DNA of 64,000 nt, from NCBI RefSeq assembly GCF_963678835.1, contig NZ_OY787469.1, forward strand, positions 2,294,001 to 2,358,000, written 5' to 3'. Below the pieces are notes generated by a model. The model was not told the origin of the DNA, did no database searches, and saw only the letters and a list, made by a program, of their open reading frames with translations. Within the stretch, counting starts at the first letter, position 1, and each line of letters begins with the position of its first letter. This stretch comes from an uncultured Desulfuromonas sp. Its GTDB lineage: Bacteria; Desulfobacterota; Desulfuromonadia; Desulfuromonadales; Desulfuromonadaceae. Positions 536 through 33,585 of this stretch are shown in pieces. A program made the translations under genes and the position numbers.

Positions 536-559
536 CGCTATATACTCGAGAATATAACG
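536..559. promoter_or_regulatory. ModE-binding box 1 (Mo-box) upstream of TonB receptor
   Basis: CGCTATATA, six bases, then AATATAACG. From memory, the ModE consensus is about CGnTATATA-N6-TATATAnCG, so this site has one mismatch in the right arm. It lies about 110 bp upstream of the receptor start at 428. A modE gene is present in the same window at 24046. Confidence 0.75.
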
Positions 560-671: not shown

Positions 672-876
672 ATCTAAAATGGAGTGCGTGATTCAATTTT
701 GATCTTTTTTCACGATAAGGAAAGGGAGCAACGTTGAGCGAAAAAAATTTTCACCGGAATCTTCGGCGTGATTTCGAGAGCACTAAGAGAAAAGTCGGCA
801 AATTCTTGATTCTGCAGGGTTGAGGTGTACTGTTAAAGATAGCCCATTGTCTCTGGTTTATCGAAAGGATGCCGTC

Positions 877-1683
877 ATGACGACATCACATCTGTTAACA
901 GGCCAAATCATCTACTTTTCTCATGGCGGTGGACCGCTGCCTTTATTGGGAGGAAGCAGCCACCAGTTGATGGTCGAGTTTATGAAAAAGCTTCCTTCGC
1001 GCCTGCACCGCCCTGAAGCCATTCTGGTGATCAGCGCTCATTGGGAAGAGGCGCAAGCGACTCTGCTGGGTGCCAGGAAGCCGGCGTTATTCTATGATTA
1101 TTATGGTTTTTCCGCTGAGGCTTACACTCTAGAGTATCCGGTTGCCGGCAATCCGGCGCTGGCCGAAAAAGTGACATCATTGCTGGATCATGCCGGGATC
1201 TCTGCCGCCATTGATCATGCGCGTGGTTTTGATCATGGTGTGTTTATTCCTTTGACGCTGATGTATCCCGAGGCGGACATTCCGGTACAGCAGTTGTCGT
1301 TATTGAAAGGGCTTGATCCGGCCAGACATCTGGCTTTAGGTCGTGCATTGCGTCAGTTGAAACAGGAAAATATCCTGGTGATTGGATCCGGTTTTTCCTT
1401 CCACAATCTGCAGGCGTTTGACAGGCCGGGTGGGGATGCCCCTGATCCGCATAATGATGCATTTCAGGATTGGCTCATCGACACCTGTACCGGTGAGTAT
1501 TCTCAGCTCGAACGGGAACAGCGTATGGTGGAATGGCAGGAAGCACCGGGAGCACGTTACTGCCATCCGCGTGAAGAACATCTGATGCCGCTTCATACCT
1601 GCCTGGCCATGGCAGAAGGACCGGCAACAAAGATTTTTGACGATTACATTCTCGGTAAGCGCTCGGTTGCTTTTCAGTGGTGA
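877..1683 (+). CDS. LigB-family extradiol ring-cleavage dioxygenase (DODA/YgiD-like)
   Basis: This 268-aa protein belongs to the class III extradiol dioxygenase family (LigB, 4,5-DOPA dioxygenase-like), Fe(II) or Zn enzymes that open catechol rings in the cytoplasm. Visible family motifs are the metal-binding [11 protein letters not shown] near the N-terminus, VISAHWEE, the catalytic FDHGVFIPL and GSGFSFHNL. The ATG at 877 is chosen because an AAAGGA Shine-Dalgarno lies just upstream, and the family N-terminus begins there rather than at 820. It is divergent from the TonB receptor across a region with two ModE boxes. A role in breaking a catecholate metallophore would fit, but is inference. 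A general aromatic dioxygenase is the alternative. Confidence 0.85.
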
Positions 1684-2324: not shown

Positions 2325-2681
2325 TCAACGAATCGGGTGGTTGGCCTTGAGGCGCATATCCAGTTGGTCTAAAAGCATGCGGGCGGCATAACGCGGACAG
2401 CTGTACAACAGGTGCCGAATAAAAGCAGTTTGTCCGCCCGGTATGTTGGTCAGTAGATACGTGACCGCCTGACGTGCGTCCGCCAGCTGTTCCAATTTTT
2501 CCAGCGAAACCTTGAGGTCAGCGTAACGTCCGCGACGATCTTGAGCGATTTCCCATTGCATCAGCTGAAAAATGGGTAACACCGTCTCTTGCAATATGAC
2601 TTCCGTCTGACGCAATTTCAAAGCTGCGACCTGGTTGATCGGATGGAGCCGGTAGCGACTTAGATCACGCGGCGAGAGCAT
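2325..2681 (-). CDS. Hypothetical protein, last gene of the nifV operon
   Basis: A 118-aa soluble, mostly helical protein of mixed charge with no signal peptide and no recognised motif. Its start overlaps the end of the preceding 82-aa gene by 17 nt, which implies translational coupling. It is therefore the third gene of a minus-strand unit headed by homocitrate synthase, which has a sigma54-type promoter and a GTAC-N6-GTAC box. By position it should serve the alternative nitrogenase, for example in cofactor assembly or protection, but nothing in the sequence states the function. It does not look like NifW, NifM or NifZ. Confidence 0.7.
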   Translation of the reverse strand: MLSPRDLSRYRLHPINQVAALKLRQTEVILQETVLPIFQLMQWEIAQDRRGRYADLKVSLEKLEQLADARQAVTYLLTNIPGGQTAFIRHLLYSCPRYAARMLLDQLDMRLKANHPIR

Positions 2682-2913
2682 GGAGCGTCCCTTTCATACG
2701 CAATCCGGGGCGGCACGTCAGCGCCAGTGAGATGGCTTGTAAACACTTGGATCGCAACTCCTGCTCGTTTTTGCCGTCGAGGATGAACAGATCGGTTGCC
2801 GAGAGGTGAATGACCGCGAAAAAGTTTTTCTCGTTTTGTCGGTAAATAGCCAGGTTAACGCGATGGCCGTCGACAGTGACACGCTGTTTCTGAAGCAATT
2901 GAGACTGTTCCAT
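2665..2913 (-). CDS. Hypothetical small protein in the nifV operon
   Basis: An 82-aa protein with an excellent AAGGAGG Shine-Dalgarno 5 nt before the ATG at 2913. The first 45 residues look like a small beta-sheet domain (strands around VTVDGHRVNLAIYR and FFAVIHLS), followed by a helix. No cysteines suggest metal binding except C51 and C61, about ten residues apart. It lies 36 nt after nifV and overlaps the next gene, so it is co-expressed with homocitrate synthase. I do not recognise the family. The strong ribosome site and tight packing make it a real gene. Confidence 0.75.
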   Translation of the reverse strand: MEQSQLLQKQRVTVDGHRVNLAIYRQNEKNFFAVIHLSATDLFILDGKNEQELRSKCLQAISLALTCRPGLRMKGTLHALAA

Positions 2914-2949: not shown

Positions 2950-4107
2950 TCATGCGGCACGAAAGCGACGTTCAGAGGTCTGATAGATGTTTTTCAGCTC
3001 CGTATCGGTTAAGGGCCGTTTGGCGCGACTGGCCCGTTTGCGGATAATCTCCATCAAACCATCGGCCTCCTGGCGACTGATAGCGATGTCCAGAGCTTTC
3101 AGCCGTTCCACCAGAGCGCTGCTTCCCGAATGCTTGCCCACCAGGATCTGGCGGGATAAGCCCACTTCATCCGGGTCAAAGCCCTCGTAGTTTTTGGGAT
3201 CTTTGAGAATGCCGTCGGCGTGCAGACCCGATTCGACGGCGAACACCCGTTCACCGACCACCGGTTTCCAGTCGTACAGGGTGCGCTGAGAGGCTTTGGC
3301 GACAAACAGGGACAGCTCGCGAAACCGATGGGTGTCGACGCCGGTTTCAATGCCGCAACCGTGTTTAAGGCCCATCACCACCTCCTCCAGGGCAGCGTTA
3401 CCGGCCCGTTCTCCCAAGCCGTTCACCGTGGTGTTGACAAAGGTCGCCCCAGCTCGAACCCCGGCAATGGCGTTGGCCGTTGCCATGCCGAGATCGTTGT
3501 GGGTATGAATCTCAATGGCCACCTCAGGCACTTTGTGACGCAAATAGGAAACGCTTTCAAACGTGGTGAACGGATCAAGAATGCCGACGGTGTCGCAAAA
3601 CCGGAAGCGGTCACCGCCGAGAGAGCGGATGATCTCCATCAACTCCGCGACAAAGCCCAGATCGGCACGGCTGGCGTCCTCACCGCCGACTGAAACATAC
3701 AAGCCATGCGCCTTGGCGAAGCCCAGGGCGGTTTTCAGCTGCTCCTTGACCCAGTGACGATCTTTGCCCAGTTTGCGGGCCATCATCTGATCCGATACCG
3801 ACAGGGAAATATCGACCGCGGTGACACCACTGTCGAGACTGGCCTGAATCTCGGGAATCAGGGCCCGGTTCCAAGTGATGAGTCGGGCATTGAGACCGAG
3901 GTCGACCAGGGCGCGGATATCGCGCTGTTCGCTTTTGCCCATGGCCGGGATGCCGCACTCGATCTCCCGGACACCGGCAGCATCCAGCATGCGGGCGATG
4001 GTCCGTTTTTCACGGCGGCTGAACACCACCCCGGCGGTTTGCTCGCCGTCGCGCAGCGTGGTGTCGTCAATAAGGATACGGGGGGACAGATCATTGTGTT
4101 GGGTCAT
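2950..4107 (-). CDS. nifV: Homocitrate synthase for nitrogenase cofactor
   Basis: A 385-aa cytoplasmic enzyme condensing acetyl-CoA with 2-oxoglutarate to (R)-homocitrate, the organic ligand of FeMo-co and FeV-co. It has the DRE-TIM/HMGL-like barrel: DDTTLRDGEQ at about residues 14-23, the HTHNDLGMA metal and substrate motif, GLGERAGNAALEEV, and the ESGLHADGI and GKHSGSSAL segments of the NifV C-terminal region. The ATG at 4107 is chosen because AGAGG lies 6 nt upstream; an in-frame ATG at 4128 has no such site. It heads an operon with two small unknown genes. A -24/-12 promoter and a VnfA-type dyad lie upstream, so it probably serves the V-nitrogenase. A housekeeping isopropylmalate or citramalate synthase is unlikely. 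Confidence 0.93.
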   Translation of the reverse strand: MTQHNDLSPRILIDDTTLRDGEQTAGVVFSRREKRTIARMLDAAGVREIECGIPAMGKSEQRDIRALVDLGLNARLITWNRALIPEIQASLDSGVTAVDISLSVSDQMMARKLGKDRHWVKEQLKTALGFAKAHGLYVSVGGEDASRADLGFVAELMEIIRSLGGDRFRFCDTVGILDPFTTFESVSYLRHKVPEVAIEIHTHNDLGMATANAIAGVRAGATFVNTTVNGLGERAGNAALEEVVMGLKHGCGIETGVDTHRFRELSLFVAKASQRTLYDWKPVVGERVFAVESGLHADGILKDPKNYEGFDPDEVGLSRQILVGKHSGSSALVERLKALDIAISRQEADGLMEIIRKRASRAKRPLTDTELKNIYQTSERRFRAA

Positions 4108-4157
4108 GGCAAGCCTCTTTTCCGGCAAATGGGTTGATAACGCCTTTACGGATTGTT

Positions 4158-4241
4158 TAGCAGGCTGTTGAAAAACAGACTGTGGAGCCCATGGACGGTC
4201 GTTGAAAAATCCCCGGACGGGACTTTTTCAATCTCCTGTTA
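4158..4241. repeat. MITE-like repeat, family 2, copy 1
   Basis: 84 bp bounded by imperfect inverted ends TAGCAGGCTGTTGAAAAA and the complement of TTTTTCAATCTCCTGTTA. The core TGTGGAGCCCATGGAC is shared with copies near 36104 and 59648. It lies between the sigma54-type promoter of nifV and the gene, so it is transcribed as part of the nifV leader. Confidence 0.75.
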
Positions 4242-4242
4242 G

Positions 4243-4258
4243 AGCAGTGATCGTGCCA
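4243..4258 (-). promoter_or_regulatory. Sigma54 (-24/-12) promoter of nifV
   Basis: On the minus strand the sequence is TGGCACG-ATCA-CTGCT, one mismatch from TGGCACG-N4-TTGCW with both the GG and GC dinucleotides intact. It lies about 137 bp upstream of nifV. A GTAC-N6-GTAC dyad is centred about 98 bp further upstream, a normal enhancer distance. Confidence 0.8.
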
Positions 4259-4347
4259 AACTGTGTTCCTTGCCCGGCGTTGCACGGAAAATCAGCGGTG
4301 CTGCGCCGTGGCCGGGGTGATGATCGCTAAAAGGTTCTTGGCGGAAC

Positions 4348-4361
4348 GTACAAAAATGTAC
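4348..4361. promoter_or_regulatory. VnfA-type upstream activator site (GTAC-N6-GTAC) of nifV
   Basis: A perfect GTAC-AAAAAT-GTAC dyad. VnfA of Azotobacter is remembered to bind GTAC-N6-GTAC-like dyads upstream of vnf promoters. It is positioned correctly for the -24/-12 promoter at 4243-4258. The flanking 4108-4472 region shows no other gene. Confidence 0.65.
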
Positions 4362-4472
4362 ACATTCGCTCCTTGGAGAACCGTTTGGTGCAATTGCACC
4401 TGTGACGTTCGCTGGAGAAGGATGGAAAATTATCCTTCCAGCCGGGGATTTTCGTTTAACCTCGACGGTTTT

Positions 4473-5525
4473 TCAGGGACCTTCGAGCAGTTGCGGTGCC
4501 GGTGTGGGTGACAGCAGCAGCCGGGCGTCAGCCGCGCAGAGCTCGTAACGATAGAAAATGCGGAAATACTCCTGAACGATGGCAACCGTATCGAGGTTGA
4601 ACCGCTCCGGGTAGAGCAGGTCGGCCAGCCAGATGGCGCCGATGATGCGGTTGCTGCCCGGCGGCCGGTCAAACCAGCTGTAGGGCAGCCAGGGAATCTG
4701 GTACACCTTGCCGCCGGTCACCGCCCTGAGCCGGTTCCACAGTGGATTGTGGACGATGGCGTTGTAGGTCAGCAATGTGCCGGCCGACGGCGTCCACACC
4801 AGAATGAGGTCCGGCTGCCACAGGATCAGTTGTTCCATGGAGACCTGCGACATCCCTTCGCCGGGCATGTTGATCACTTCGGCGACATTGACGCCGCCGA
4901 CAAAATCGAGCAACTGGGTGTGGATGGAGCCGGCCGGATTGGTGCTGAGGCCGTCGGGATTTTCGGCATAGTAGACGCGGACGCGTTGCTCCAAAGGGAT
5001 CTGTTGCGCCTGTTTTTGCAGCGGGTAGAGATAACGGTTGACGAACGCGGTCATCCGTTGCGCTTGTTCCTGTTGGCCCAGCAGATCGCCGAGAAAGGCA
5101 AATGCTTGCGGATAATGCATCATGTCCTGATTGAGCAGCACCACCGGGGCGCCGATTTTGTTCTGCAGCCGTTCCGCCTGATCGAGGTTATAGGGTAACG
5201 CTTCCATGATGACGATTTCCGGGCGCAGATTGACGATCTCCTCATCGGAGAAACGGTGGCCGCCTTGCGGAACGACTTTGCCCTGATAAGAGTCGGCGGC
5301 GATAAAGCGTTTGGCCATGGCACTGAGGCGAAACGCATTGAGCACTTTCTCCGGCGCGACGGCGCTGACCATCGGCAGGCAATGGCCGACGGCATAGATG
5401 CGGTTGATGGTGGTCGGTATGGTCACGGTACGTCCGGCCATATCGGTGATGGTTCGCGTCTCGGCGGCGAAGGACGCCGTTGTCAGAACCAATAGAAAGG
5501 TAAAGCAGAGCAGCCTGCGGATCAT
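4473..5525 (-). CDS. Periplasmic metal-chelate-binding protein of a FecCD/BtuC-type ABC importer
   Basis: A 350-aa class III (PF01497) solute-binding protein. A 20-residue signal peptide ends at SFA-AE, followed by RTITDMAGRTVTIP, the usual start of this family. The EEIVNLRPEIVI and QPDLILVW segments are the paired lobe motifs. The ATG at 5525 is set by AAGGAG 7 nt upstream; the longer frame to 5609 lacks a ribosome site. It is the last gene of the TonB receptor/ABC set on this strand, separated from the receptor by a MITE. It should pass a metal chelate to the permease at 9195. Vanadium or a vanadophore is inferred from operon control. Fe-siderophore, molybdate/tungstate or cobalamin binding cannot be excluded. 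Confidence 0.85.
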   Translation of the reverse strand: MIRRLLCFTFLLVLTTASFAAETRTITDMAGRTVTIPTTINRIYAVGHCLPMVSAVAPEKVLNAFRLSAMAKRFIAADSYQGKVVPQGGHRFSDEEIVNLRPEIVIMEALPYNLDQAERLQNKIGAPVVLLNQDMMHYPQAFAFLGDLLGQQEQAQRMTAFVNRYLYPLQKQAQQIPLEQRVRVYYAENPDGLSTNPAGSIHTQLLDFVGGVNVAEVINMPGEGMSQVSMEQLILWQPDLILVWTPSAGTLLTYNAIVHNPLWNRLRAVTGGKVYQIPWLPYSWFDRPPGSNRIIGAIWLADLLYPERFNLDTVAIVQEYFRIFYRYELCAADARLLLSPTPAPQLLEGP

Positions 5526-5630
5526 GTCGTACTCCTTGAGTTCCGGGTGTCGGGAAGAGAAGTGTGTTTTTTCCCGAAAGCCGTTCGTGGCTTTTGGAAA
5601 AAAACGCACGAGGGTTTAAATCATAAGCCT

Positions 5631-5783
5631 CTAGTCCTTGGGTACACGCAATGTTGTCATCGAAAAGAGCACCTGTAGGAGCGAATTTATTCGCGAATTG
5701 TTCTGGTCCCTGATCCTTATCATGATGGAAATTCGCGGCTGAAGCCGCTCCTACAATGGACAATTTCAACTATGCTGACGTAC
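5631..5783. repeat. MITE-like repeat, family 1, copy A
   Basis: About 153 bp beginning CTAGTCCTT, containing the two REP-like hairpins TGTAGGAGCGAATTTATTCG and the complement of AATTCGCGGCTGAAGCC, and ending near TGCTGACGTAC. The same element recurs at 13466, 13612, 31734 and 35817. It separates the TonB receptor from the binding-protein gene. Confidence 0.85.
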
Positions 5784-5788
5784 CGGCA

Positions 5789-5850
5789 AAAAGGCTCGTG
5801 GAGCCCATGGATGGGGCGACCACAATCGTTGGATTTGTTTACAACCCGGC
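5789..5850. repeat. Fragment of family 2 repeat abutting copy A
   Basis: The stretch with GTGGAGCCCATGGATGGG and GACCACAATC matches the internal part of family 2 (copies near 36104 and 59648) but lacks its inverted ends. It lies immediately beside family 1 copy A, which suggests nested or adjacent insertions. Confidence 0.45.
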
Positions 5851-5898
5851 GATTGTGTAAGCTTTTGAACATGACACTTTCCAAACGCCTCTCATGGC

Positions 5899-7977
5899 TC
5901 AAAATGTCACCGTCAGTTCCATGCCGTAAACGGCGCCGATATCGTTTACCGTCCCCCAGTTGGCCCTGGCCGGATAGCCCTTGTTGAAGGTGGCGTAATC
6001 GTCGTCTTTGAGGTTGCGGCCGAACAGCGCCACGGTGGCGACGCAATCGTCAAGAACAAAGGCCCGGCTGAGATTGGCGTTGATCAGCGTATAATCGCCC
6101 ACCGTGTAATCGTAACTGGTGTAAGGATCGACCTTGAGGATGGAGAGTGACGCACGGTAGTCGCCCAGCTGGTAATTGAGGCGGCCCGAATATTTGTTTT
6201 CCGGAGTTTCGGTGGTGATGTTCGGATTGTCTTCATCAAACCAGGTGTAGCTCAGTTCGTAGTTCAGTCGGCCCCAGCGCTCGTGACTCAGCAGCTGGCC
6301 GCTGATGGCGGCTTCGACCCCCTGGCGGCGGATATCCTCGGTGGTATAGATCGTCACTGTTTCCTCGTAAGTGGGGTCGTCCGGGTCGATGACGGTGAAC
6401 GCACCGTCCGAAACTTTGCTGCCGTCAATATCGTAGTAAAAAGCGGTCAAAGACATGTTGAGAGCGCGCCACCAGGCGGTGCTGATGCCGACTTCATACT
6501 TCAGGCGCCGTTCGTCATCGAGAGCCTTGTTGTCAACCGAGGTCAGGGTGTCGGACGACGGCGTGTTGTTGTAGGAGAAGCGGCCGAACAGGCTGCAGGC
6601 CGGTGTCCATTGATAGGACAGGCCCAAAGACAGTGCATAGGCTTCATCGGTCCATTCGTCATCACTGAGTTCGACTTCGTTGCCGTTGTCCAGGTACTTG
6701 TCGCCGCCTTCAACCACTTTTTTGGCATCGGCGCGGATGGCACCGTCGAGGGTCAGTTTATCGGTGAGCCGGTACTCGTCATACAGATAACCGCCGTAGG
6801 ATTCCTCCTCACGCGGTGTGGTGCTGCCTTCCGTACGCATGTACCACATCAGTGCCTGAGCCCCGACTTTCAAGGTGTTTTTGTTCGAGGTGATGGTATG
6901 GGTGAGATGAAATTCGCGTACCCGGTCGGTGAAATCGCGCGGATCACCGTGGTCGTAAATCGTGTCATAAAAAGCGGTACCGGTCGCTTCACTGAAGCCG
7001 AAGGTCAACGCCGTGACCTGGCTGTCGCTCCAGTTGGCCGTGGCCTGATAGGAGACAACCGCGGTATCAACGGGGTCGTAACGCCAGATATGCTGGTCCA
7101 TGACACCGGCCGGAGTCGGGCCGGAGGTGGGGTAATTGGTGGTGCCGCTGTAGGTGCCGACGGCGCGTTGGACATGTCGGGAGGCTTTATTGACGTAGAC
7201 CATGGCCCGGCTGGTGAAACGTTCCGCCTCATAACCGAGGTTGAAGAAAAAGGAATCGCCGTCGTATTCGTTATTCCAGTCGGAGCGACCATCGGTTTTG
7301 GCCTTGGCATAGCCGAGTCCCAGCTTGAGGCGGTCGCCGAAAATGCTGTCGCCATGGAAAATGCTCCCGTTGACGGTGCTGTAGCTGGCATAACTGCCGC
7401 GCAGTTCGGTTTCACGGCCGTCATCGGCTGAGCGGGTGGTGATGACGATGAAGCCCTGGTTGGGGGTGGCTGCGGCGGAACCGAAGCCGGTGAGCGGTCC
7501 CATGGTCAACACCGTGGCGTCGCGAAAAAAACGGACCGATTCAATCATGGACACCGGCAAGTCGCCGAGGATGCGCCGCGCCTCCGACGAGGACAGGTAG
7601 ACGCCGTCGATAATGATGTTGACCGTGTCGCCGCGTGACTTGGCAAAGTTGTGCACCCGAGCCCCCTGGCGCCTGATCGACATGCCCATGGCGCTGTCGA
7701 TCAGATCATAGACATCGTCGGGGCGCATCTCTTCAATATCTTCCTGGGTGAAAATCTGTTGGGTGGCTTCGGCACTTTGCGGGATGGCAAACCGTTCATG
7801 GGCGGGCAGTTCCTCAATTTTGTCGGCGGACCAACTGCTGCTGGTCCAATGGGATTCACTGACCACAACCGGGGGGAGCACCTGGACTTCGGCGGCATCC
7901 GTTTCAGCCACTTTGATAAGAGTGGCGAGGAAAAACAACAGCATGGTGGCAGTACGTATGTTTTGTATCCTTTGCAT
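5899..7977 (-). CDS. TonB-dependent outer-membrane receptor of the VnfA-type regulon
   Basis: A 692-aa receptor with a signal peptide (residues 1 to about 28, ending at DAA), a TonB-box-like segment (VLPPVVVSES), a plug domain to about residue 195 (VYDLIDSAMGMSIRRQG, VNIIIDGVYL, SVRFFRDATVLTMGPL, FIVITTR) and a 22-strand-type barrel ending in the aromatic ELTVTF. The ATG at 7977 is preceded by AGGGAGG. A perfect GTAC-N6-GTAC dyad lies about 200 bp upstream and a weak -24/-12 sequence lies close to the gene. It is placed between the ATPase and binding-protein genes of one importer, so it should bring the same chelate across the outer membrane. Vanadium specificity is inference. Confidence 0.92.
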   Translation of the reverse strand: MQRIQNIRTATMLLFFLATLIKVAETDAAEVQVLPPVVVSESHWTSSSWSADKIEELPAHERFAIPQSAEATQQIFTQEDIEEMRPDDVYDLIDSAMGMSIRRQGARVHNFAKSRGDTVNIIIDGVYLSSSEARRILGDLPVSMIESVRFFRDATVLTMGPLTGFGSAAATPNQGFIVITTRSADDGRETELRGSYASYSTVNGSIFHGDSIFGDRLKLGLGYAKAKTDGRSDWNNEYDGDSFFFNLGYEAERFTSRAMVYVNKASRHVQRAVGTYSGTTNYPTSGPTPAGVMDQHIWRYDPVDTAVVSYQATANWSDSQVTALTFGFSEATGTAFYDTIYDHGDPRDFTDRVREFHLTHTITSNKNTLKVGAQALMWYMRTEGSTTPREEESYGGYLYDEYRLTDKLTLDGAIRADAKKVVEGGDKYLDNGNEVELSDDEWTDEAYALSLGLSYQWTPACSLFGRFSYNNTPSSDTLTSVDNKALDDERRLKYEVGISTAWWRALNMSLTAFYYDIDGSKVSDGAFTVIDPDDPTYEETVTIYTTEDIRRQGVEAAISGQLLSHERWGRLNYELSYTWFDEDNPNITTETPENKYSGRLNYQLGDYRASLSILKVDPYTSYDYTVGDYTLINANLSRAFVLDDCVATVALFGRNLKDDDYATFNKGYPARANWGTVNDIGAVYGMELTVTF

Positions 7978-8024
7978 AGGTCCTCCCTGTGGGAAAAAGA
8001 AACATGTCAATGCCTTGTGGAAAG

Positions 8025-8040
8025 ATCATAGTTTGTGCCA
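8025..8040 (-). promoter_or_regulatory. Candidate sigma54 promoter of the TonB receptor (weak -12)
   Basis: The minus strand reads TGGCACA-AACT-ATGAT. The -24 element is nearly perfect but the -12 GC is GA, so this is only a candidate. It lies 48 bp from the start codon and about 143 bp downstream of the GTAC dyad. Confidence 0.4.
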
Positions 8041-8175
8041 AATGCGTCGCTGAACCCGCCGCGTTGTTGCGGTATCTTGCTAACGTGATGAAAAAACAGG
8101 GAAATACTTGTTGTTATCTTTTGCTCATCTTTGCGCGCAGCGTCAGAAAGCGGTCTGACGGGTCGCTTGTATTGA

Positions 8176-8189
8176 GTACCTGCACGTAC
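8176..8189. promoter_or_regulatory. VnfA-type activator site upstream of the TonB receptor
   Basis: A perfect GTAC-CTGCAC-GTAC dyad. It is strikingly like the GTACCTGCGGGTAC site remembered from the Azotobacter vnfH promoter. ACGTACGTTTT at the right half also recurs at the permease site (10467-10477). Confidence 0.65.
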
Positions 8190-8353
8190 GTTTTCGGCCT
8201 GTTGTGACGCAAATGTCCGATGGTGATCGTCATGTCGTGCAGGCGATCCCTTGAATGAAGCCAATGGTGACAACGGCGTAGAACTGGCGAAAAGGGGGGC
8301 TTCGGCAACTGGTGGTGGGTTCGGCAGCGGTATGTTGAGAGCGGGAGAATCCG

Positions 8354-8378
8354 GTCCTCTGCCGTTTCGGCAGAGGAC
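8354..8378 (-). terminator. Strong hairpin after the ABC ATPase gene
   Basis: GTCCTCTGCC and GGCAGAGGAC form a perfect 10-bp stem with a 5-nt loop, 31 nt after the stop of the ATPase gene on the minus strand. No T-tract follows, so it may be a Rho-type terminator, an mRNA-protecting stem or an attenuator rather than a classic terminator. Confidence 0.5.
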
Positions 8379-8408
8379 GTGGCGGGCAGAGGGTTTGGGG
8401 CAGGTCTG

Positions 8409-9185
8409 TCAGGCCGGAACGCAGACCCTTAAGGGGGCACCGGACGGATTGACGATGTTGAGCAGGCGGCTCTTAACCTGGTAGGCTTCGTGAAGATATT
8501 GTTCGGTGATCACCTCATGGGGGCGGCCGACGCAAACCGTGCTGTGCCGGTCAAGGATCAGTGCTTTGGAGGCATAGAGCAGGGCGTGGTTGGGATAATG
8601 GGTGGTGAGGATGATGCTGATATCGGTTTCGCGGCTGATGCGGCGGATATGGTCCAACACCTTGATCTGGTTGCCGTAATCCAGGTTGGATGTCGGTTCG
8701 TCCATGATCAACAGATCCGTTTGCTGGGTCAACGCCCTGGCGATCAGGACCAGCTGCCGCTCGCCGCCGCTGATTTCCGTGTAGGTGTGCTCGCGCAAAT
8801 GATGGATGCCCAAGGTGGAGAGAGCTTCCTCGGCAATGGCAAAATCTTTGGAGGTGGGGGAGGAGAACAGACCGATATGGGCGGTACGGCCGGTGGCGAC
8901 GACATCAAGCACGCGAAATGGAAACGGCGGAGTATGTGCCTGAGGAACATAGCCGACACGGGCGGCAAAGCGGCGTCGCGACCAGGTGGCGACATTCTGA
9001 TTGTCGAGGAGGATCTCGCCGCCCTGCGCCGGCAACAGCCCGAGGATGGTTTTAAACAGGGTGGTCTTGCCGACACCGTTGGGGCCGAGTAGGCACAACA
9101 GTTCTCCCTTCCCCAGGGTGAAAGAGATGTCTTTGAGCACGGTTTTCGTTTTGTAGCCGCAACACAGCGATTTGATTTCCAGCAT
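8409..9185 (-). CDS. ABC transporter ATPase (FecE/BtuD-type)
   Basis: A 258-aa ATP-binding subunit that drives the FecCD-type importer from the cytoplasmic face. Walker A is GPNGVGKTT (about residues 34-42), the Q-loop is VPQAHT, the signature is SGGER (about 139-143), Walker B is LLIMDEP with the D-loop SNLD, and the H-switch is TTHY. Its start lies 9 nt after the permease stop, so the two form one operon. The C-terminus is a little longer than FecE and holds a cysteine near the end. It is transcribed from the promoter region at 10304-10482, which carries a VnfA-type dyad. The transported chelate is inferred to be a vanadium complex. Confidence 0.9.
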   Translation of the reverse strand: MLEIKSLCCGYKTKTVLKDISFTLGKGELLCLLGPNGVGKTTLFKTILGLLPAQGGEILLDNQNVATWSRRRFAARVGYVPQAHTPPFPFRVLDVVATGRTAHIGLFSSPTSKDFAIAEEALSTLGIHHLREHTYTEISGGERQLVLIARALTQQTDLLIMDEPTSNLDYGNQIKVLDHIRRISRETDISIILTTHYPNHALLYASKALILDRHSTVCVGRPHEVITEQYLHEAYQVKSRLLNIVNPSGAPLRVCVPA

Positions 9186-9194
9186 GATGACCTC

Positions 9195-10253
9195 CTAAAC
9201 CCACCCTTTGCGGGTATTGAGCAATAGATAAAGAAAAAACGGCGTTCCTATGATTGAGGTGACGACTCCCAGAGGGACTTCAACGGGAAACAACACCCGC
9301 GCCAGGTCATCCACCGCCAGCATGAACACAGCTCCGAGCACTGCCGACACCGGAATCAGCCGGGTATAGTCCGGACCGACCAGCAGCCGTGCCAGATGGG
9401 GGACGATCAGCCCCACCAGACCGATGATGCCGCTGATAGACACGGCGGCGGCGGTCATCAGCGTCGCGCAGACAATGATGATAAAGCGCATGATGTTGGT
9501 CCGTGCGCCCAGAGCCCTGGCCTCTTCGTCGCCAAACGAGAGCACGTTGAGATTCCAGCGCAACGCAAACAGCAGTCCGAGTCCGAGAATCACCGGCAAA
9601 CCGGCGATGGACAAATCAGACATGTTGACGCTGGCCAGACTGCCCATCAGCCAGAAAGTGATGGCCGGCAGAGTGTTATAGGGATCCGCCACATATTTAA
9701 TGATTGAGACAAAGGCGGTAAACAGCGTACCGATGATGATGCCGCCGAGAATCATCACCAGCACCGGTTCGCCGCGCCGCGCGAACAGCACACCGATGGC
9801 ATAGGCGGTCCCGACCGCGGCCATGCCGGAGAGAAACGCGCACAATTGCACCATCAGGGTACTGAAGGAAAACAGCATGCCGAGGGCCGCGCCGAAACTG
9901 GCCCCGGCGGAGACGCCGAGAATTCCCGGAGACACCATCGGGTTGCGAAACATGCCCTGATACGCCGCACCGGAGACGGACAGGGCCGCTCCCACCAGCG
10001 AGGCTGCGAGAATACGCGGCAGGCGGATCTGGAACAGGATGGTTTCCAGGTCCGTACCGCCCGGATGAGGCGGTAGCGTCATCTTGGCACACAACGCTTC
10101 GGCAACAGTGTGCGCCGATGTCGGAAAACGTCCAACGGTAAAAGAATAGAAAAACAGCACGGCAAACAAGCCTATCGTTGTTGAAATTCTCATCGTCACA
10201 GCCGTTTCGTTTGTGGAGAAAAGCGGTTTTTTTGCAGCGAGGTTTGAATTCAT
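9195..10253 (-). CDS. FecCD/BtuC-type ABC permease
   Basis: A 352-aa polytopic inner-membrane protein of the FecCD family with about 9-10 transmembrane segments. Family motifs are RLPRILAASLVGAALSVSGA, GILGVSAGASFGAALG, the GIIGLVGLIVPHLARLL coupling region and a C-terminal FFLYLLLNTRKGWV. It should form the homodimeric channel served by the ATPase next to it. The ATG at 10253 is used; an in-frame ATG at 10193 is possible, as neither has a strong ribosome site. The upstream region carries a -24/-12 sequence at 10304-10319 and a perfect GTAC-N6-GTAC dyad, divergent from the vnfA-like activator gene. Confidence 0.9.
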   Translation of the reverse strand: MNSNLAAKKPLFSTNETAVTMRISTTIGLFAVLFFYSFTVGRFPTSAHTVAEALCAKMTLPPHPGGTDLETILFQIRLPRILAASLVGAALSVSGAAYQGMFRNPMVSPGILGVSAGASFGAALGMLFSFSTLMVQLCAFLSGMAAVGTAYAIGVLFARRGEPVLVMILGGIIIGTLFTAFVSIIKYVADPYNTLPAITFWLMGSLASVNMSDLSIAGLPVILGLGLLFALRWNLNVLSFGDEEARALGARTNIMRFIIIVCATLMTAAAVSISGIIGLVGLIVPHLARLLVGPDYTRLIPVSAVLGAVFMLAVDDLARVLFPVEVPLGVVTSIIGTPFFLYLLLNTRKGWV

Positions 10254-10303
10254 TCAGAACGACTCCAAAGCTCCCGATCCCTATTATCATGTCTTCACTG
10301 TTC

Positions 10304-10319
10304 AGCATTGAGCATGCCA
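10304..10319 (-). promoter_or_regulatory. Sigma54 promoter of the ABC importer
   Basis: The minus strand reads TGGCATG-CTCA-ATGCT. Both GG and GC are intact, with two mismatches to the consensus, and the TGGCATG-CTC part is identical to that of the vnfH promoter. It ends 51 bp before the permease ATG and lies about 157 bp below the GTAC dyad. Confidence 0.65.
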
Positions 10320-10344
10320 ATCGCACCATGGGTGATTGGCATGC
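10312..10344. promoter_or_regulatory. Perfect 11-bp inverted repeat overlapping the permease promoter
   Basis: GCATGCCAATC (10312-10322) and GATTGGCATGC (10334-10344) are perfect arms around an 11-bp loop, followed on the plus strand by CCCACTTTTTT. It overlaps the -24 element of the importer promoter. It could be an operator, or a plus-strand terminator for antisense transcription. The motif is not recognised. Confidence 0.55.
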
Positions 10345-10468
10345 CCACTTTTTTCCTAAAGCAATGGCATTGAAAAACGGTGAACCGCTGGGGGCGCGAT
10401 GGACTTTGCCGGAACAAAAACGTTGTCGTGACGTGGTGGCATGAAGAGCTTTTCGACCCAGTGAAAAC

Positions 10469-10482
10469 GTACGTTTTGGTAC
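10469..10482. promoter_or_regulatory. VnfA-type activator site between the importer and vnfA
   Basis: A perfect GTAC-GTTTTG-GTAC dyad, overlapping a 14-bp palindrome AAAACGTACGTTTT (10464-10477). It lies about 157 bp from the importer -24/-12 sequence and about 163 bp from that of the activator gene, so one site could serve both divergent promoters and give autoactivation. Confidence 0.65.
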
Positions 10483-10637
10483 AAAATCCATAGAAAAGGA
10501 CCTCGTGGTACATCTTGTGACGCCGATAAACGCACGAAAAAGTGTTTAGAGCATGCGCTGATATTACAAAATTCCTATGTATCGCAATAAGTTAGGCGAA
10601 TGTGTCTTGCCGGTGGGTGCGAAAAGAGAGAATCGCT

Positions 10638-10653
10638 TGGCAGGCGTTATGCA
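10638..10653 (+). promoter_or_regulatory. Sigma54 promoter of the vnfA-draT operon
   Basis: TGGCAGG-CGTT-ATGCA keeps the -24 GG and -12 GC with two mismatches to the consensus. It ends 29 bp before the ATG. Its -12 half is inside the ModE-like palindrome. Confidence 0.65.
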
Positions 10654-10669
10654 ATATGTTACATAACGC
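10644..10669. promoter_or_regulatory. ModE-like operator over the vnfA promoter
   Basis: GCGTTATG and CATAACGC are perfect 8-bp arms around 10 bp. Against CGnTATATA-N6-TATATAACG the outer CGTTAT/ATAACG arms match and the inner bases differ. It covers the -12 element and start point, a position that would repress transcription when ModE is molybdate-loaded. Confidence 0.65.
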
Positions 10670-10681
10670 TTGGAGGTGAAA

Positions 10682-12535
10682 ATGGATATGAGTCTAAAAA
10701 ATGAATTATCTAGCGGGAATTGTTTGATCTTTTCTGAACAGATAGCTTGCGGCGGTATCGCGGCTCTGCCTGGAAAAAAGGCATTATCGTCGGGCCGTGG
10801 CATCTCTTTTGATCTATGCCGCAGCTGTGCGCAAAAAGATCGATGTGAAAATAGCGAGGCTGTTTTACCTTCCGAGGCGACAGATGCGACGCTGGAATCG
10901 CCGCAGGCGCCACCGGTACCAGTGCCGCTCAACATTGATTTTTACGAGACCCTGGCGAAAAACTCCACGCTGCCGCTCAACCTTGATCATGTGGGGAAAT
11001 GCCGCAATCTGGAGTGTCGGGCGCAGCTGTTTCCACTTCTTTACCAGATGAGCCGGGTGATCGCTGAAAGCGGCAATTTGACCCATACATTGATTCTGCT
11101 GCAACAGATCATGGAACGGGAGATGAATTTTGTCTGCGGCATGATTACCCTGCATCATCAACGTCCCGGACGCATTCTCATTCATGAAAGTTTCGGCCTT
11201 ACCGAGGAGGAAGCCGCCAAAGGCGTCTACGACCTCGGCGAAGGGATCACCGGTAAGGTGGTTGAAACCGGCAAGGCGATCATGTTGCCGTGCATCAGCG
11301 AGGAACCGGCCTTTCTCCACCGGACCCGCAGTCTCAAGTACGGCCTGGATCAGGAACTGTCGTTTATCTGCGTGCCCATCAAACGCGGTTGCAAAGTGCT
11401 GGGGACCATCAGCGCCGAACGGATCTACGACAGCGACCGTTTGCTGGAGCTCGATGTGGAGTTGCTGGCCACGTTTGCCGCCATGATCGCCCCGACGGTT
11501 GAACTGCACCTGATGGAGCAGGTTGACAAGGTGCATCTTGAACGGGAAAATCAGCGCCTCAATGCCGCGTTGAAAGCCAAGTTCAAGCCGACGAACATTA
11601 TCGGCAATTCCAAGGCCATGCTTGAAGTGTATGAGCTGGTCGGCAAAATTACTTCTGCCAAAACCACGGTGCTGATTCTCGGTGAAAGTGGTGTTGGTAA
11701 GGAACTGGTGGCCAGCGCTATTCATTACAACGGCTCATTGGCGGACGGTCCATTCGTCAAATTCAACTGTGCTGCGTTGCCGGAAAGTATTATTGAAAGC
11801 GAACTGTTTGGCCATGAAAAAGGGGCCTATACCGGGGCGTCCAACTATCGCACCGGCCGCTTTGAAGAGGCCGATGGCGGCACAATTTTTCTCGATGAAA
11901 TCGGCGAACTTTCCCTGGGTATGCAGGCTAAATTGCTGCGGGTGTTGCAGGAAAAAACCTTTGAGCGAGTCGGCAGCAACCGGCCGATCACGGTGGATAT
12001 CCGCATCATAGCCGCCACCAACCGCGATCTGGGCGAAATGGTCGAACAGGGCATCTTCCGCGAAGACCTGTTTTACCGTCTCAATGTCTTTCCCATTACC
12101 ATTCCCCCTTTACGCGACCGTGGCAGCGACATCATTGCCCTGACGGATCATTTCGTCGCCCATTTTGCCGAATTGTCCGATAAAAGTGTCAAGCGCGTAT
12201 CGACACCGGCCCTGAACATGCTGATGGGCTACCACTGGCCGGGTAATGTCCGTGAGTTGGAGAACGTCATTGAGCGAGCGGTGATCCTCAGTGAAGACGA
12301 GGTGATTCACGGTTACAACCTGCCGCCGTCGCTGCAGACCTCCATCTTAACCGGTACCGTTGCCAAAGGCGGTCTGGATGCCAAACTGGCTTCCGTCGAG
12401 TACGAAATGCTTGTCGACGCGTTAAAAGGGCACAACGGCAACATGACGGCCGCGGCCCGTGAGCTGGGCATTACCCGGCGTATCTTGGGGCTGCGGATGA
12501 AATTGTATCATCTGGATTACAAAAACTACCGCTAG
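10682..12535 (+). CDS. vnfA: Sigma54-dependent activator of the NifA/VnfA family
   Basis: A 617-aa enhancer-binding protein. The N-terminal region has cysteines C46-x2-C49-x5-C55 and C107-x4-C112. A GAF domain follows (about 125-285), then the AAA+ domain (about 305-535) with GESGVGKE Walker A, the sigma54-contacting loop GAYTGA (a GAFTGA variant), GTIFLDEIGEL Walker B and the RLNVFPI region, and a C-terminal Fis-type HTH (about 570-617). The ATG at 10682 follows GGAGG by 5 nt. The NifA-type C-x4-C interdomain linker is absent; VnfA and AnfA carry an N-terminal cysteine motif instead. It is assigned as vnfA from that motif and from its neighbours. A NifA that serves a Mo-nitrogenase elsewhere is the alternative. 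It is co-transcribed with draT. Confidence 0.85.
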   Translation: MDMSLKNELSSGNCLIFSEQIACGGIAALPGKKALSSGRGISFDLCRSCAQKDRCENSEAVLPSEATDATLESPQAPPVPVPLNIDFYETLAKNSTLPLNLDHVGKCRNLECRAQLFPLLYQMSRVIAESGNLTHTLILLQQIMEREMNFVCGMITLHHQRPGRILIHESFGLTEEEAAKGVYDLGEGITGKVVETGKAIMLPCISEEPAFLHRTRSLKYGLDQELSFICVPIKRGCKVLGTISAERIYDSDRLLELDVELLATFAAMIAPTVELHLMEQVDKVHLERENQRLNAALKAKFKPTNIIGNSKAMLEVYELVGKITSAKTTVLILGESGVGKELVASAIHYNGSLADGPFVKFNCAALPESIIESELFGHEKGAYTGASNYRTGRFEEADGGTIFLDEIGELSLGMQAKLLRVLQEKTFERVGSNRPITVDIRIIAATNRDLGEMVEQGIFREDLFYRLNVFPITIPPLRDRGSDIIALTDHFVAHFAELSDKSVKRVSTPALNMLMGYHWPGNVRELENVIERAVILSEDEVIHGYNLPPSLQTSILTGTVAKGGLDAKLASVEYEMLVDALKGHNGNMTAAARELGITRRILGLRMKLYHLDYKNYR

Positions 12536-12547
12536 GGGGCGTGAGCG

Positions 12548-13339
12548 GTGAATTACAGTTCATTCAACCTGTGCAACCTGCCGCCATGGGTGATCGCTTC
12601 GCATCATTTCAATGACAATCCGCAACCGATCGAATTGCAGGGGGTGAAAGAGGGGACCCGGGTTCTGTTTGAAAAACTGGCCGGGCTCGCTGACCACCAT
12701 GAACGCGGTCGGGTGTTCAATGATTTCATGTCGGTGAAGTTTCACCTCCACCACTGGCATGAACAGGAGACCGCCGCCGCCCGCACCAGTATCCGTAACA
12801 GTTATCTGCGCTTTTTGCGTGGCTGGATGATCGATTCCAATTCGGTGGCCGGGGCGGTGCTCAAACACTGGGTGGAGAGCCGTTTCGGCATTCGCCCGAC
12901 CTTCCACAAGAGCCGTATCGACGATATCAGCAGTCCGGCCTATTTTGATTATTCACGCGATGTTCTGACCGGCAGCGCCCAGACCAGCGCCATTCAGACA
13001 CAGCTTGATCTGCTCTACGGCTACAGCCAGTTTGAACTGGCGTTGCGCCACCCTGATCAGCCCTGTCTAACCCTGTATCGCGGCACCCACGACGCCGAAG
13101 AATATGACATCCTTGACAGAGCAGGCAAGCGGGAGATGATTGTGCGGCTGAATAATCTGGTCTCGTTCACCAGTGAAGAGGAGCGGGCCTGGGAATTCGG
13201 ACGTACCGTGTGGCAGACCACCATTCCGTTGGCAAAAATCTTTTTTTTCAGTGGTCTGTTGCCGGGCAGTATCCTGCACGGCGAGGAGGAATTTCTCGTC
13301 ATCGGCGGGGAATTCCGCGTCAAACGGCTGTTGTACTGA
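12548..13339 (+). CDS. draT: NAD(+)-dinitrogenase-reductase ADP-ribosyltransferase, copy 1
   Basis: A 263-aa DraT, which transfers ADP-ribose from NAD to Arg100 of dinitrogenase reductase and switches nitrogenase off in response to ammonium or energy loss. Family blocks NSYLRFLRGWMIDSNSV and ESRFGIRPTFH are intact. The R-S-E catalytic set of ADP-ribosyltransferases is visible as R178 in LYRG, S206 in SFTS and E246/E248 in GEEEFLVIGG. It starts at GTG 12548, 12 nt after the activator, with AGGGGG just upstream. It is therefore in the same transcript as vnfA. The partner hydrolase gene draG is not in the window. A second copy lies at 61560. Confidence 0.93.
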   Translation: MNYSSFNLCNLPPWVIASHHFNDNPQPIELQGVKEGTRVLFEKLAGLADHHERGRVFNDFMSVKFHLHHWHEQETAAARTSIRNSYLRFLRGWMIDSNSVAGAVLKHWVESRFGIRPTFHKSRIDDISSPAYFDYSRDVLTGSAQTSAIQTQLDLLYGYSQFELALRHPDQPCLTLYRGTHDAEEYDILDRAGKREMIVRLNNLVSFTSEEERAWEFGRTVWQTTIPLAKIFFFSGLLPGSILHGEEEFLVIGGEFRVKRLLY

Positions 13340-19645: not shown

Positions 19646-21034
<1,389 letters not shown>

Positions 21035-21107
21035 TCAGTACCTTTCGTGTAATTTATGGATCTGTCGTGCCTTTTTGCCAAAAACATGGAGAGCTTAAGC
21101 CGGCACC

Positions 21108-22861
<1,754 letters not shown>

Positions 22862-22884
22862 TCACGTCGGTTGAGCGGATCGGA

Positions 22885-23904
<1,020 letters not shown>

Positions 23905-23951: not shown

Positions 23952-23965
23952 GTTCAACACCGAAC
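23952..23965. promoter_or_regulatory. Degenerate VnfA-type dyad upstream of vnfH
   Basis: GTTC-AACACC-GAAC is a perfect dyad of the same N6 geometry as GTAC-N6-GTAC, with the inner bases changed. It is centred about 153 bp upstream of the -24/-12 element of vnfH and exactly 40 bp from the next dyad. Confidence 0.45.
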
Positions 23966-23991
23966 GGTTTTGCGTGGGAATGTTCTTGAAT

Positions 23992-24005
23992 GTACGCTAT
24001 GGTTC
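23992..24005. promoter_or_regulatory. Second VnfA-type half-perfect dyad upstream of vnfH
   Basis: GTAC-GCTATG-GTTC has one mismatch to GTAC-N6-GTAC. With the dyad at 23952 it forms a tandem pair 40 bp apart in the vnfH/modE intergenic region. It also lies 41 bp before the modE start. Confidence 0.45.
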
Positions 24006-31889: not shown

Positions 31890-33585
31890 CCCGAATTTCT
31901 CACCAATAAATAGAATAAGGCTGTATTTCGTGGCATAAATGTAGTGAGACCAATCACTTACATAGCGCGAAAGGAACAGCCTTATGAAAACAGAGTGTAA
32001 CACAGAGCAACTTGAGTTTCATAGCTTTGGTCGGCGTGAAATTATTGGTCAATTCGATGGCATCAAGATCAGTTCCGATGGCGGTGGCATCCTTCTTCGA
32101 GAGGTCGAAAAACGCACCGGCATATTGCGTCGTTTGAGTCAATGCTTCACGGACTATCGCAATCCAGAGATGATTACACACAGCCTCGAATCCTTGATTA
32201 GCCAGCGCATCATGGCGCTGGCATTAGGCTACGAAGACCTCAACGACCATGATGTTTTGCGCCATGATGCCTTGCTCAGTGTTTTAAGTGGTAAGCCCAA
32301 TGGAAAAATGGGAGCCGGGAAAAGCACTCTCAACCGTCTTGAACTAACGCCTGCGACGGGCTCAAGTTCATCGCGCTACAAGAAGATTGTCGCCAATAGT
32401 GACGCTATGGACGAGCTTTTGATTGATTTCTTTCAAAAGTCATTCAGTGAAGTTCCAGAAGAGATCGTCTTGGATGTAGACGCTACAGATGATCTAATCC
32501 ACGGTACTCAGCAGGGGCGTTTTTATCATGGCTATTATCGAAGCTACTGCTATTTGCCGCTGTATATTTTTTGTGGGGAACAGCTGTTGTGCGCCCGCTT
32601 GCGTACGGCGGATCAGGATGGCGCCGCCGGAACAAAAGAAGAACTGGAACGCATTGTCCGACGCATTCGCCAATCATGGCCGGATGTTCGCATCGTTGTG
32701 CGTGGAGACAGTGGTTTTTGTCGCGACGAGATTATGACTTGGTGCGAGCACGAAGAAAACCGCGTGGACTATGTCTTGGGATTGGCGAAAAACTCTCGCT
32801 TGAAGACACTGATAGAAGAGGAGATGGAACAGGCGAAACAAGAGCATGAGCAGACAGAAAAAGCCGCACGGGTATTCAAAGACTTTCACTACCAGACCCG
32901 CAATAGCTGGAGCCGGTCCAGGCGCGTTGTGGGCAAAGCGGAATATTTGTCCAAGGGAGAAAATCCCCGCTTTGTCGTAACGACACTGAGCGAGGAAAAA
33001 GCGGATGCCCGCAGCTTGTATGAAGACATTTACTGCGCCCGCGGCGACATGGAAAATCGGATCAAGGAACAACAACTGGCCCTGTTTGCCGACCGGACGT
33101 CCTGTCATGAAATGCGTGCCAACCAATTGCGCCTGTATTTTTCCAGCTTTGCCTATGTTCTGTTACAAACTCTGCGGCGCATCGGATTAAAAGAAACGGA
33201 ATTGGCCAAAGCACAGAGCGAAACAATCCGTCTGAAATTACTGAAGATTGGCACCCGGATCAAAATCAGCGTGCGCAAGATCTGGCTGTCATTTTCAGAA
33301 AGCTATCCCTATGCGGACTTGCTGCGCCAAGTTTTGGGGAATCTTCAAAAAATACCGATACGCTGTTAAGGCCAAGGGGAATAGTCAGACAAAATCAAGA
33401 GGAGAAAAAAACGAAACATGGGAGAGGTGCGCCTTTTTTCATAAACATATTGCTCAACGCCGACCCATTTGAGTCATTGATGGAGACTGCATTCCACAGG
33501 AAGAGTCAATTTGCCTATTGGACAGAACAATAGGCGTGATTTTCGCGAAAATCACGCCTCAAAAAACAGTGGTGAGAAATTCGGG
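31890..33585 (+). mobile_element. IS1380-family insertion sequence, complete
   Basis: 1696 bp with perfect 16-bp terminal inverted repeats CCCGAATTTCTCACCA (left 31890, right ending 33585) and a 4-bp CTAG direct repeat on both sides (31886-31889 and 33586-33589). It encodes one intact transposase and looks recently active. It inserted precisely at the CTAG end of family 1 copy D. Confidence 0.9.
31984..33369 (+). CDS. IS1380-family transposase
   Basis: A 461-aa DDE transposase of the IS1380 type. ISSDGGGILLREVEKRTG near the N-terminus, EEIVLDVDATDDLIHGTQ (first catalytic Asp region), VVRGDSGFCRDEIM (second Asp) and DMENRIKEQQLALFADRTSC (the catalytic Glu region, with the NRIKE motif) are all present and uninterrupted. 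The ATG at 31984 follows a GAAAGGAA sequence closely. The gene fills most of the element between intact inverted repeats, so it is probably functional. Confidence 0.93.
   Translation: MKTECNTEQLEFHSFGRREIIGQFDGIKISSDGGGILLREVEKRTGILRRLSQCFTDYRNPEMITHSLESLISQRIMALALGYEDLNDHDVLRHDALLSVLSGKPNGKMGAGKSTLNRLELTPATGSSSSRYKKIVANSDAMDELLIDFFQKSFSEVPEEIVLDVDATDDLIHGTQQGRFYHGYYRSYCYLPLYIFCGEQLLCARLRTADQDGAAGTKEELERIVRRIRQSWPDVRIVVRGDSGFCRDEIMTWCEHEENRVDYVLGLAKNSRLKTLIEEEMEQAKQEHEQTEKAARVFKDFHYQTRNSWSRSRRVVGKAEYLSKGENPRFVVTTLSEEKADARSLYEDIYCARGDMENRIKEQQLALFADRTSCHEMRANQLRLYFSSFAYVLLQTLRRIGLKETELAKAQSETIRLKLLKIGTRIKISVRKIWLSFSESYPYADLLRQVLGNLQKIPIRC

Follow-up and report, generated by a model that had tools for sequence, protein, structure and literature searches.

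Paired GTAC-N6-GTAC dyads point to a probable VnfA-type regulon including nifV and metal-import genes beside the vanadium nitrogenase of an uncultured Desulfuromonas

Results

A 64,000-nucleotide stretch from an uncultured Desulfuromonas sp. (contig NZ_OY787469.1, positions 2,294,001 to 2,358,000; hereafter "the window") is a vanadium-nitrogenase region, in which paired DNA dyads probably mark out a functional VnfA-type regulon. Sequence evidence for membership is good for vnfH, for nifV (homocitrate synthase) and for the intergenic region between an ABC permease gene and the activator gene vnfA, and weaker for a TonB-dependent receptor gene (Table 1). We estimate a probability of roughly 0.78 that the dyad pairs are operators through which the activator encoded in this window drives vnfH, nifV and permease/vnfA together with sigma-54, with the TonB receptor gene joining through a weaker, lone-dyad promoter. 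The functional unit would be two dyads, GT(A/T)C-N6-G(A/T)AC or near, 29-30 bp apart.

A first-pass annotation had reported perfect GTAC-N6-GTAC dyads upstream of nifV, the TonB receptor gene and the permease gene, and all three are indeed present there and nowhere else in the 64 kb. Its estimate that about one such dyad would occur by chance was too high: 100 dinucleotide shuffles of the window gave a mean of 0.12 perfect dyads, with none of the 100 reaching three, and the whole genome holds 18, or about a quarter of one expected per 64 kb. Finding three of these 18 within one given 6,375-bp stretch has a p-value of ~2e-6, for a stretch picked after the fact. The perfect dyad alone was nonetheless rejected as a criterion, as it misses vnfH and lets in the 15 background sites of the genome, 10 of which sit inside open reading frames (ORFs) of at least 200 amino acids (aa), with one further site in a 152-aa ORF preceding an ammonium-transporter-like ORF (both named by eye) and another in a hairpin adjoining a DnaJ-like ORF (by eye). 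Neither the two-mismatch dyad scan of the window (115 found vs. 137 expected) nor the -24/-12 scan (36 matches with at most two mismatches vs. 41.9 expected) revealed any enrichment, so that the signal comes from strong sites and where they lie, and -24/-12 matches count by position only.

What sets the probable sites apart is pairing. We scored dyads on a scale with a maximum of 8 that admits GTTC and GAAC half-sites, and scanned spacings of 15 to 79 bp for strict pairs (scores of 6.4 or higher for the weaker dyad and of 7.4 or higher for the stronger). The window holds four such pairs, at nifV (4348/4378, 30 bp), permease/vnfA (10469/10498, 29 bp) and vnfH (23952/23982, 30 bp), plus one at 40 bp that we take for an overlapping vnfH dyad set; 100 first-order Markov windows yielded no pair at 29-30 bp. 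At this spacing the best partner scores are 6.4 for nifV, 7 for the permease and 5 for the TonB receptor, whereas elsewhere in the genome the partners of the remaining 15 perfect dyads all stay below 6.4 (best at most 5). The three perfect sites were only part of the picture, and the partner dyads at 4378 and 10498 and the degenerate vnfH pair had been overlooked: at vnfH, where a perfect dyad is missing, the promoter carries GTTC/GAAC/GTAC dyads 30 bp apart above its -24/-12 sequence.

The dyads had also been placed ~100-160 bp above -24/-12-like sequences, which the distances from dyad centre to the -24 GG bear out (98 bp for nifV, 158 bp for the permease and 144 bp for the TonB receptor, all on the minus strand); for pairs, the range in the window is ~100-190 bp upstream of the promoter. 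GG-N10-GC in a -24/-12 context is present at nifV, the permease, vnfH and also vnfA, whose plus-strand element had been overlooked. This element is 135 bp away from the closer dyad of the 10469/10498 pair and overlaps the sole perfect CGTTAT-N12-ATAACG box in the genome, which, by its resemblance to ModE sites, we presume to be a ModE operator. A similar combination of -24/-12 and overlapping ModE-type box precedes the activator in the genomes that we label G009 and G641 and at locus L012, as well as in G008, where the box is one base shorter and the activator is separated from a divergent sulfatase-like gene by a region with a dyad pair. It is on these grounds conceivable, if rather improbable, that the 10469/10498 pair serves vnfA alone, as an autoactivation site, and that permease and ATPase genes are transcribed otherwise; however, the permease has its own -24/-12 sequence, much like that of vnfH (TGGCATGCTCAATGCT vs. 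TGGCATGCTCTCTGCT), and in G641 the activator promoter is present with no pair listed nearby. Located between the two promoters, the pair could serve both.

The spacing recurs in other genomes (the present one, 4.525 Mb in two contigs, is labelled G000). The loci scanned for pairs were L012, L013 and L034 to L057, leaving out L042 and L043 (partial duplicates of L036 and L037), L053 (this genome) and also L058. Eight of the 10 pairs found there stand at 29-30 bp, six of them at alternative-nitrogenase H promoters, one at nifV/nifB of L012 and one at the activator/sulfatase-like gene of G008. A class-wide search of 277 genomes returned nine with a close activator (E 1e-190), and a pair is present at the alternative-H promoter in all eight where that promoter is covered (G000, G008, G009, G166, G215, G611, G641 and G584, the pair of G584 lying >450 bp from the start codon). 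The activators of these eight genomes and of L012 have the recognition helix LGxTRRxxGLRM in common. The ninth genome, G592, offers just the end of a K-like gene at a contig edge, and we take it and G408 as one genome because their coordinates and score are the same. By comparison, not one of the four second H genes (64-66% identical) of G166, G611, G215 and G000 carries a pair.

Two other dyad occurrences were recorded during this survey. L013, on a contig named as a Rhodospirillales MAG (metagenome-assembled genome) and with an activator relative at 68%, has a perfect lone dyad (2900-2913) with a -24/-12-like sequence upstream of a nifD/nifE-like gene that runs divergently. In G308, an assembly of many contigs, most of the 55 listed dyad matches consist of GTACTTTTGGGTAC or its complement, which therefore looks like a repeat family rather than a set of operators.

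Several observations weigh against the proposed regulon. The scoring scheme for dyads and the weighting of -24/-12 sequences are both our own, with a consensus drawn in part from general background; the nifV partner dyad is weak, at 6.4 of 8; and lone dyads, relaxed or perfect, are also found within genes, as in G584, whose DRAT (dinitrogenase reductase ADP-ribosyltransferase) gene contains a perfect one. The 29-30 bp rule was first noticed on part of the loci later scored, so that the fairer test comes from G641 (both dyads perfect), G611 and G584, which were added afterwards and each have a 29-bp pair above an alternative-H -24/-12 sequence. Outside the class, strict pairs occur at two of eight alternative-nitrogenase H promoters (G089 and G348), while G404 shows a weak pair (6.8/6.4), the dyads of G308 and G409 are unpaired, G310 has one weak match at -35, and no dyads were found at the alternative-H promoter of G079 and G410. 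As six of these eight genomes (not G079 and G410) encode an activator bearing the helix LGxTRRxxGLRM, helix and pair match imperfectly. Finally, the TonB receptor dyad is unpaired, its best partner (5) scoring the same as that of one background site, and its promoter-like sequence fails the GC at -12.

For the receptor, the lone dyad could be a chance or relict sequence, with the receptor gene transcribed from a promoter elsewhere or through read-through out of the ATPase gene. We consider this a serious contender, if somewhat short of an even chance: beyond the missing 29-30 bp partner and the GA at -12, the receptor clusters that adjoin the activator in G166 and G641, with relatives of the receptor, binding protein, permease and ATPase (31-52% identity), have no tandem dyads, but a chance perfect dyad in 6 kb is unlikely at genome density, and a stable hairpin between the ATPase and receptor genes (8330-8408, minus strand, z -3.7) speaks against simple read-through, though it is without a T run. 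Given the partner scores and the GA at -12, we regard nifV and permease/vnfA as probable targets of the activator and the TonB receptor as a possible one. The earlier proposal of a VnfA regulon with nifV and metal import hence holds up for nifV (tandem operator, good -24/-12 and a matching arrangement in L012) and for the permease (tandem operator, good -24/-12), and less well for the receptor. As for what might be transported, the PF01497 binding protein is related to 4pag ("Periplasmic binding protein", E 2.6e-39) and, chiefly across residues 171-355, also to HI_1472 (E 1e-18), which we take to be MolA. MolBC-A is a molybdate importer (PMC4031551, accessible portions).

The nifV gene of the window is one of two in this genome above the NifV cut-off, the other lying at 2801707, and among 17 genomes searched only G000 and G408 have two. 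In a nifV tree, in which supports are moderate and outgroup branches long, the second copy clusters with same-genus copies (G008 and G009, support 88/87), and the window copy with the activator-linked copy of L012 (support 91/87), a locus of G408, which belongs to another family. Two of the 13 nifV genes compared have an upstream pair, and these are the two activator-linked copies; no pair was found within 2 kb upstream of the other 11 (our second copy, the molybdenum-linked copy of G408, and those of G008, G009, G166, G215, G308, G410, G584, G611 and G641). In L012, beside the activator gene, nifV and a nifB-like radical-SAM gene flank the pair (1938/1967), and each of the two has a -24/-12 sequence, that of nifV scoring 0.95.

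From its upstream sequence, the window nifV appears to be wired directly to VnfA-type operators, which would be a new element: in a literature search that left most subscription papers out of reach, we met neither a nifV shown to be VnfA-controlled nor a second nifV carrying a VnfA-type operator of its own. It is tempting to speculate, and we give it even odds, that the activator-linked nifV and the two small ORFs that follow it (in L012 also the nifB-like gene) form a mobile regulatory module freeing alternative-nitrogenase cofactor synthesis from the molybdenum nif genes, with gaining genomes keeping two nifV, one per nitrogenase, each separately controlled. A second nifB-like gene of this genome, below the family cut-off, is located on the 820-kb contig (G000:C2:685914-686741, L070) beside a solute-binding-protein-like ORF; considered as a further activator target, it was rejected, as no dyad scoring at least 7 occurs in the 3.8 kb examined.

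The activator falls below the NifA cut-off (468.7 vs. 528.85) and has no other match in this genome at E 1e-100; used as query against the genome contigs it returned four loci, its best PDB match is a Nif-specific regulator, and no named VnfA reference was found among plasmids at E 1e-120. A GKCRNLECR motif precedes the GAF match and is kept in the close relatives compared; a conserved cysteine motif in the GAF domain has been named for VnfA/AnfA (PMC7294313, accessible portions). An activator of functionally AnfA type, answering to a lack of molybdenum (and perhaps of vanadium) rather than being a vanadium-specific VnfA, strikes us as unlikely, though it has its arguments: the protein shares 84% and 81% identity with the respective activators of G008 and G641, two genomes in which the D protein scores above the AnfD cut-off, and the AnfA consensus of alphaproteobacteria, TAC-N6-GTA, lies within GTAC-N6-GTAC (PMC7294313). 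D proteins of G009, G166 and G215, also with close activator relatives, are below the VnfD cut-off. Against this, our genome has one VnfD above cut-off with no further AnfD/VnfD-grade match, and its vnfG passes the V-type cut-off. The name VnfA given at first pass therefore fits by context, while the site alone cannot separate VnfA from AnfA, since close relatives of the activator adjoin Fe-only nitrogenases. In G009, the activator gene (L037:590-2427) is in two frames meeting near residue 171, an apparent frameshift or sequencing error.

Around these sites, VnfD and VnfG score above curated V-type cut-offs, and VnfK has the vnfK model as best match yet lies slightly below its cut-off (864.2 vs. 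873.95). Downstream of vnfHDGK follow nifE/nifN-like and nifX-like genes, and the vnfH-to-nifX genes, all in a single direction, are inferred to form one operon; a ModE-like gene is divergent from vnfH. A nifH-like gene (64% to vnfH) and a nifD-like match ~6-8 kb past the right window edge are what we take for the molybdenum nitrogenase. Leftward of vnfA, on the minus strand, lie the FecCD-type permease and ATPase, the TonB receptor and PF01497 binding protein, and nifV. A DRAT gene (12548-13339) is directly 3' of vnfA, and a relative adjoins the activator in several other genomes; an IS1380-family transposase gene (31984-33369) separates the vnf region from later genes.

Further observations concern the transport side. 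A near-identical stretch with CGAATTTATTCGCG, probably an interspersed repeat, was seen by eye on both contigs, at ~5655-5783 between the receptor and binding-protein genes and at L031 ~1280-1412. To the left of the window, a second TonB receptor gene (L053:12450-14594) is transcribed away from a LigB-type dioxygenase gene (window 820-1683) and followed by ORFs including ExbB-, ExbD- and TonB-like ones (by eye). Two ModE-type boxes 34 bp apart lie upstream of it (window 536-559 and 570-593), the first identical in G009 (L043 16720), where it adjoins a similar receptor.

Table 1. Features of the window discussed in the text (window coordinates).
Feature	Coordinates	Strand	Basis or remark
118-aa ORF, no assigned function	2325..2681	minus	48% identical relative after nifV in L012, cut by contig edge
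82-aa ORF after nifV, no assigned function	2665..2913	minus	similar ORF in L012 by eye
nifV, homocitrate synthase	2950..4107	minus	TIGR02660, 520 vs. cut-off 462.9 bits
Putative nifV -24/-12 sigma-54-type promoter TGGCACGATCACTGCT	4243..4258	minus	1 mismatch
Perfect dyad GTACAAAAATGTAC, putative main operator half upstream of nifV	4348..4361		pattern scan
Weak partner dyad GAACCGTTTGGTGC, 30 bp from perfect nifV dyad	4378..4391		dyad score
Periplasmic binding protein, PF01497	4473..5525	minus	related to 4pag and HI_1472
TonB-dependent receptor (plug domain)	5899..7977	minus	domain search
TonB receptor weak -24/-12-like sequence TGGCACAAACTATGAT	8025..8040	minus	2 mismatches; GA, not GC, at -12
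Perfect lone dyad GTACCTGCACGTAC upstream of TonB receptor	8176..8189		pattern scan
ABC transporter ATPase, FecE/BtuD type	8409..9185	minus	domain search
ABC permease, FecCD type	9195..10253	minus	domain search
Putative permease -24/-12 promoter TGGCATGCTCAATGCT	10304..10319	minus	2 mismatches
Perfect dyad GTACGTTTTGGTAC between permease and vnfA	10469..10482		pattern scan
Partner dyad GGACCTCGTGGTAC, 29 bp from perfect permease/vnfA dyad	10498..10511		dyad score
vnfA -24/-12-like promoter TGGCAGGCGTTATGCA	10638..10653	plus	-24/-12 scan
ModE-type box CGTTATGCAATATGTTACATAACG overlapping vnfA -12	10645..10668		sole perfect CGTTAT-N12-ATAACG in genome
VnfA/AnfA-type sigma-54 activator (GAF, AAA+, Fis helix-turn-helix)	10682..12535	plus	domain search
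vnfH, vnfD, vnfG, vnfK structural genes	19646..23712	minus	profile cut-offs
Putative vnfH -24/-12 promoter TGGCATGCTCTCTGCT	23791..23806	minus	-24/-12 scan
Degenerate dyad GTTCAACACCGAAC upstream of vnfH	23952..23965		dyad score
Dyad GTTCTTGAATGTAC at vnfH, 30 bp from 23952 dyad	23982..23995		dyad score; overlaps another at 23992-24005

Discussion

Much of this organization has precedents, here compared as far as the accessible portions of the cited papers go. In Azotobacter vinelandii, the VnfA1 motif from chromatin immunoprecipitation sequencing is GT(T/A)C-N6-GTAC, mostly two per promoter, and the targets include three TonB receptors accompanied by ABC components, along with modABC2 and a putative iron ABC operon, with ModE sites at the vnfA1 and anfA promoters (PMC9542535). 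The window resembles this regulon in motif (two per promoter at nifV, permease/vnfA and vnfH, partners having relaxed half-sites, and unpaired at the TonB receptor), in paired sites of similar spacing, in sigma-54 promoters, in vnfH and TonB/ABC genes as putative targets and in a ModE-type site at the activator gene. It differs in that all three A. vinelandii nitrogenase systems draw homocitrate from nif-cluster genes (PMC9542535), whereas here a second nifV carries the operator; in that the vnfH-to-nifX genes all run in one direction; and in that one activator was found, against three VnfA paralogs. Paenibacillus vnf clusters likewise link vnfHDGKEN with nifV and fepBCD transporter genes (PMC3961195), an account of gene content in whose accessible part no activator operators are reported. 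Anabaena variabilis has the vanadate importer vupABC beside its vnf genes, together with a gene that "may be vnfV" (PMC4284476), and the accessible text describes repressors VnfR1/VnfR2 and no TonB receptor, in contrast to the activator and TonB receptor seen here. Alphaproteobacterial AnfA uses two TAC-N6-GTA dyads upstream of anfH (PMC7294313), a consensus contained in ours, and in this genome further genes carry sites. Motif, pairing and transport targets (Azotobacter) as well as vnf-linked nifV and transporter genes (Paenibacillus) are hence already known.

Taken together, we propose that, without molybdenum, ModE would leave the vnfA promoter, and VnfA would bind the three pairs, those of vnfH, nifV and the permease/vnfA intergenic region, driving sigma-54 polymerase through DNA looping. 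The V-nitrogenase would be produced along with a homocitrate synthase dedicated to it and an ABC importer, with VnfA itself maybe raised, and the TonB receptor and binding protein would probably join through their weaker lone-dyad promoter. Parts for the cofactor and metal uptake would thus probably be switched on together under molybdenum scarcity.

These sites extend the Azotobacter VnfA operator grammar of paired dyads to another bacterial class, where the 29-30 bp spacing rule separates probable sites from background. The receptor and the ABC importer become candidates for vanadium or molybdenum uptake. More broadly, the arrangement suggests that homocitrate supply has been duplicated and rewired for the V-nitrogenase, whereas Azotobacter relies on the nif cluster.

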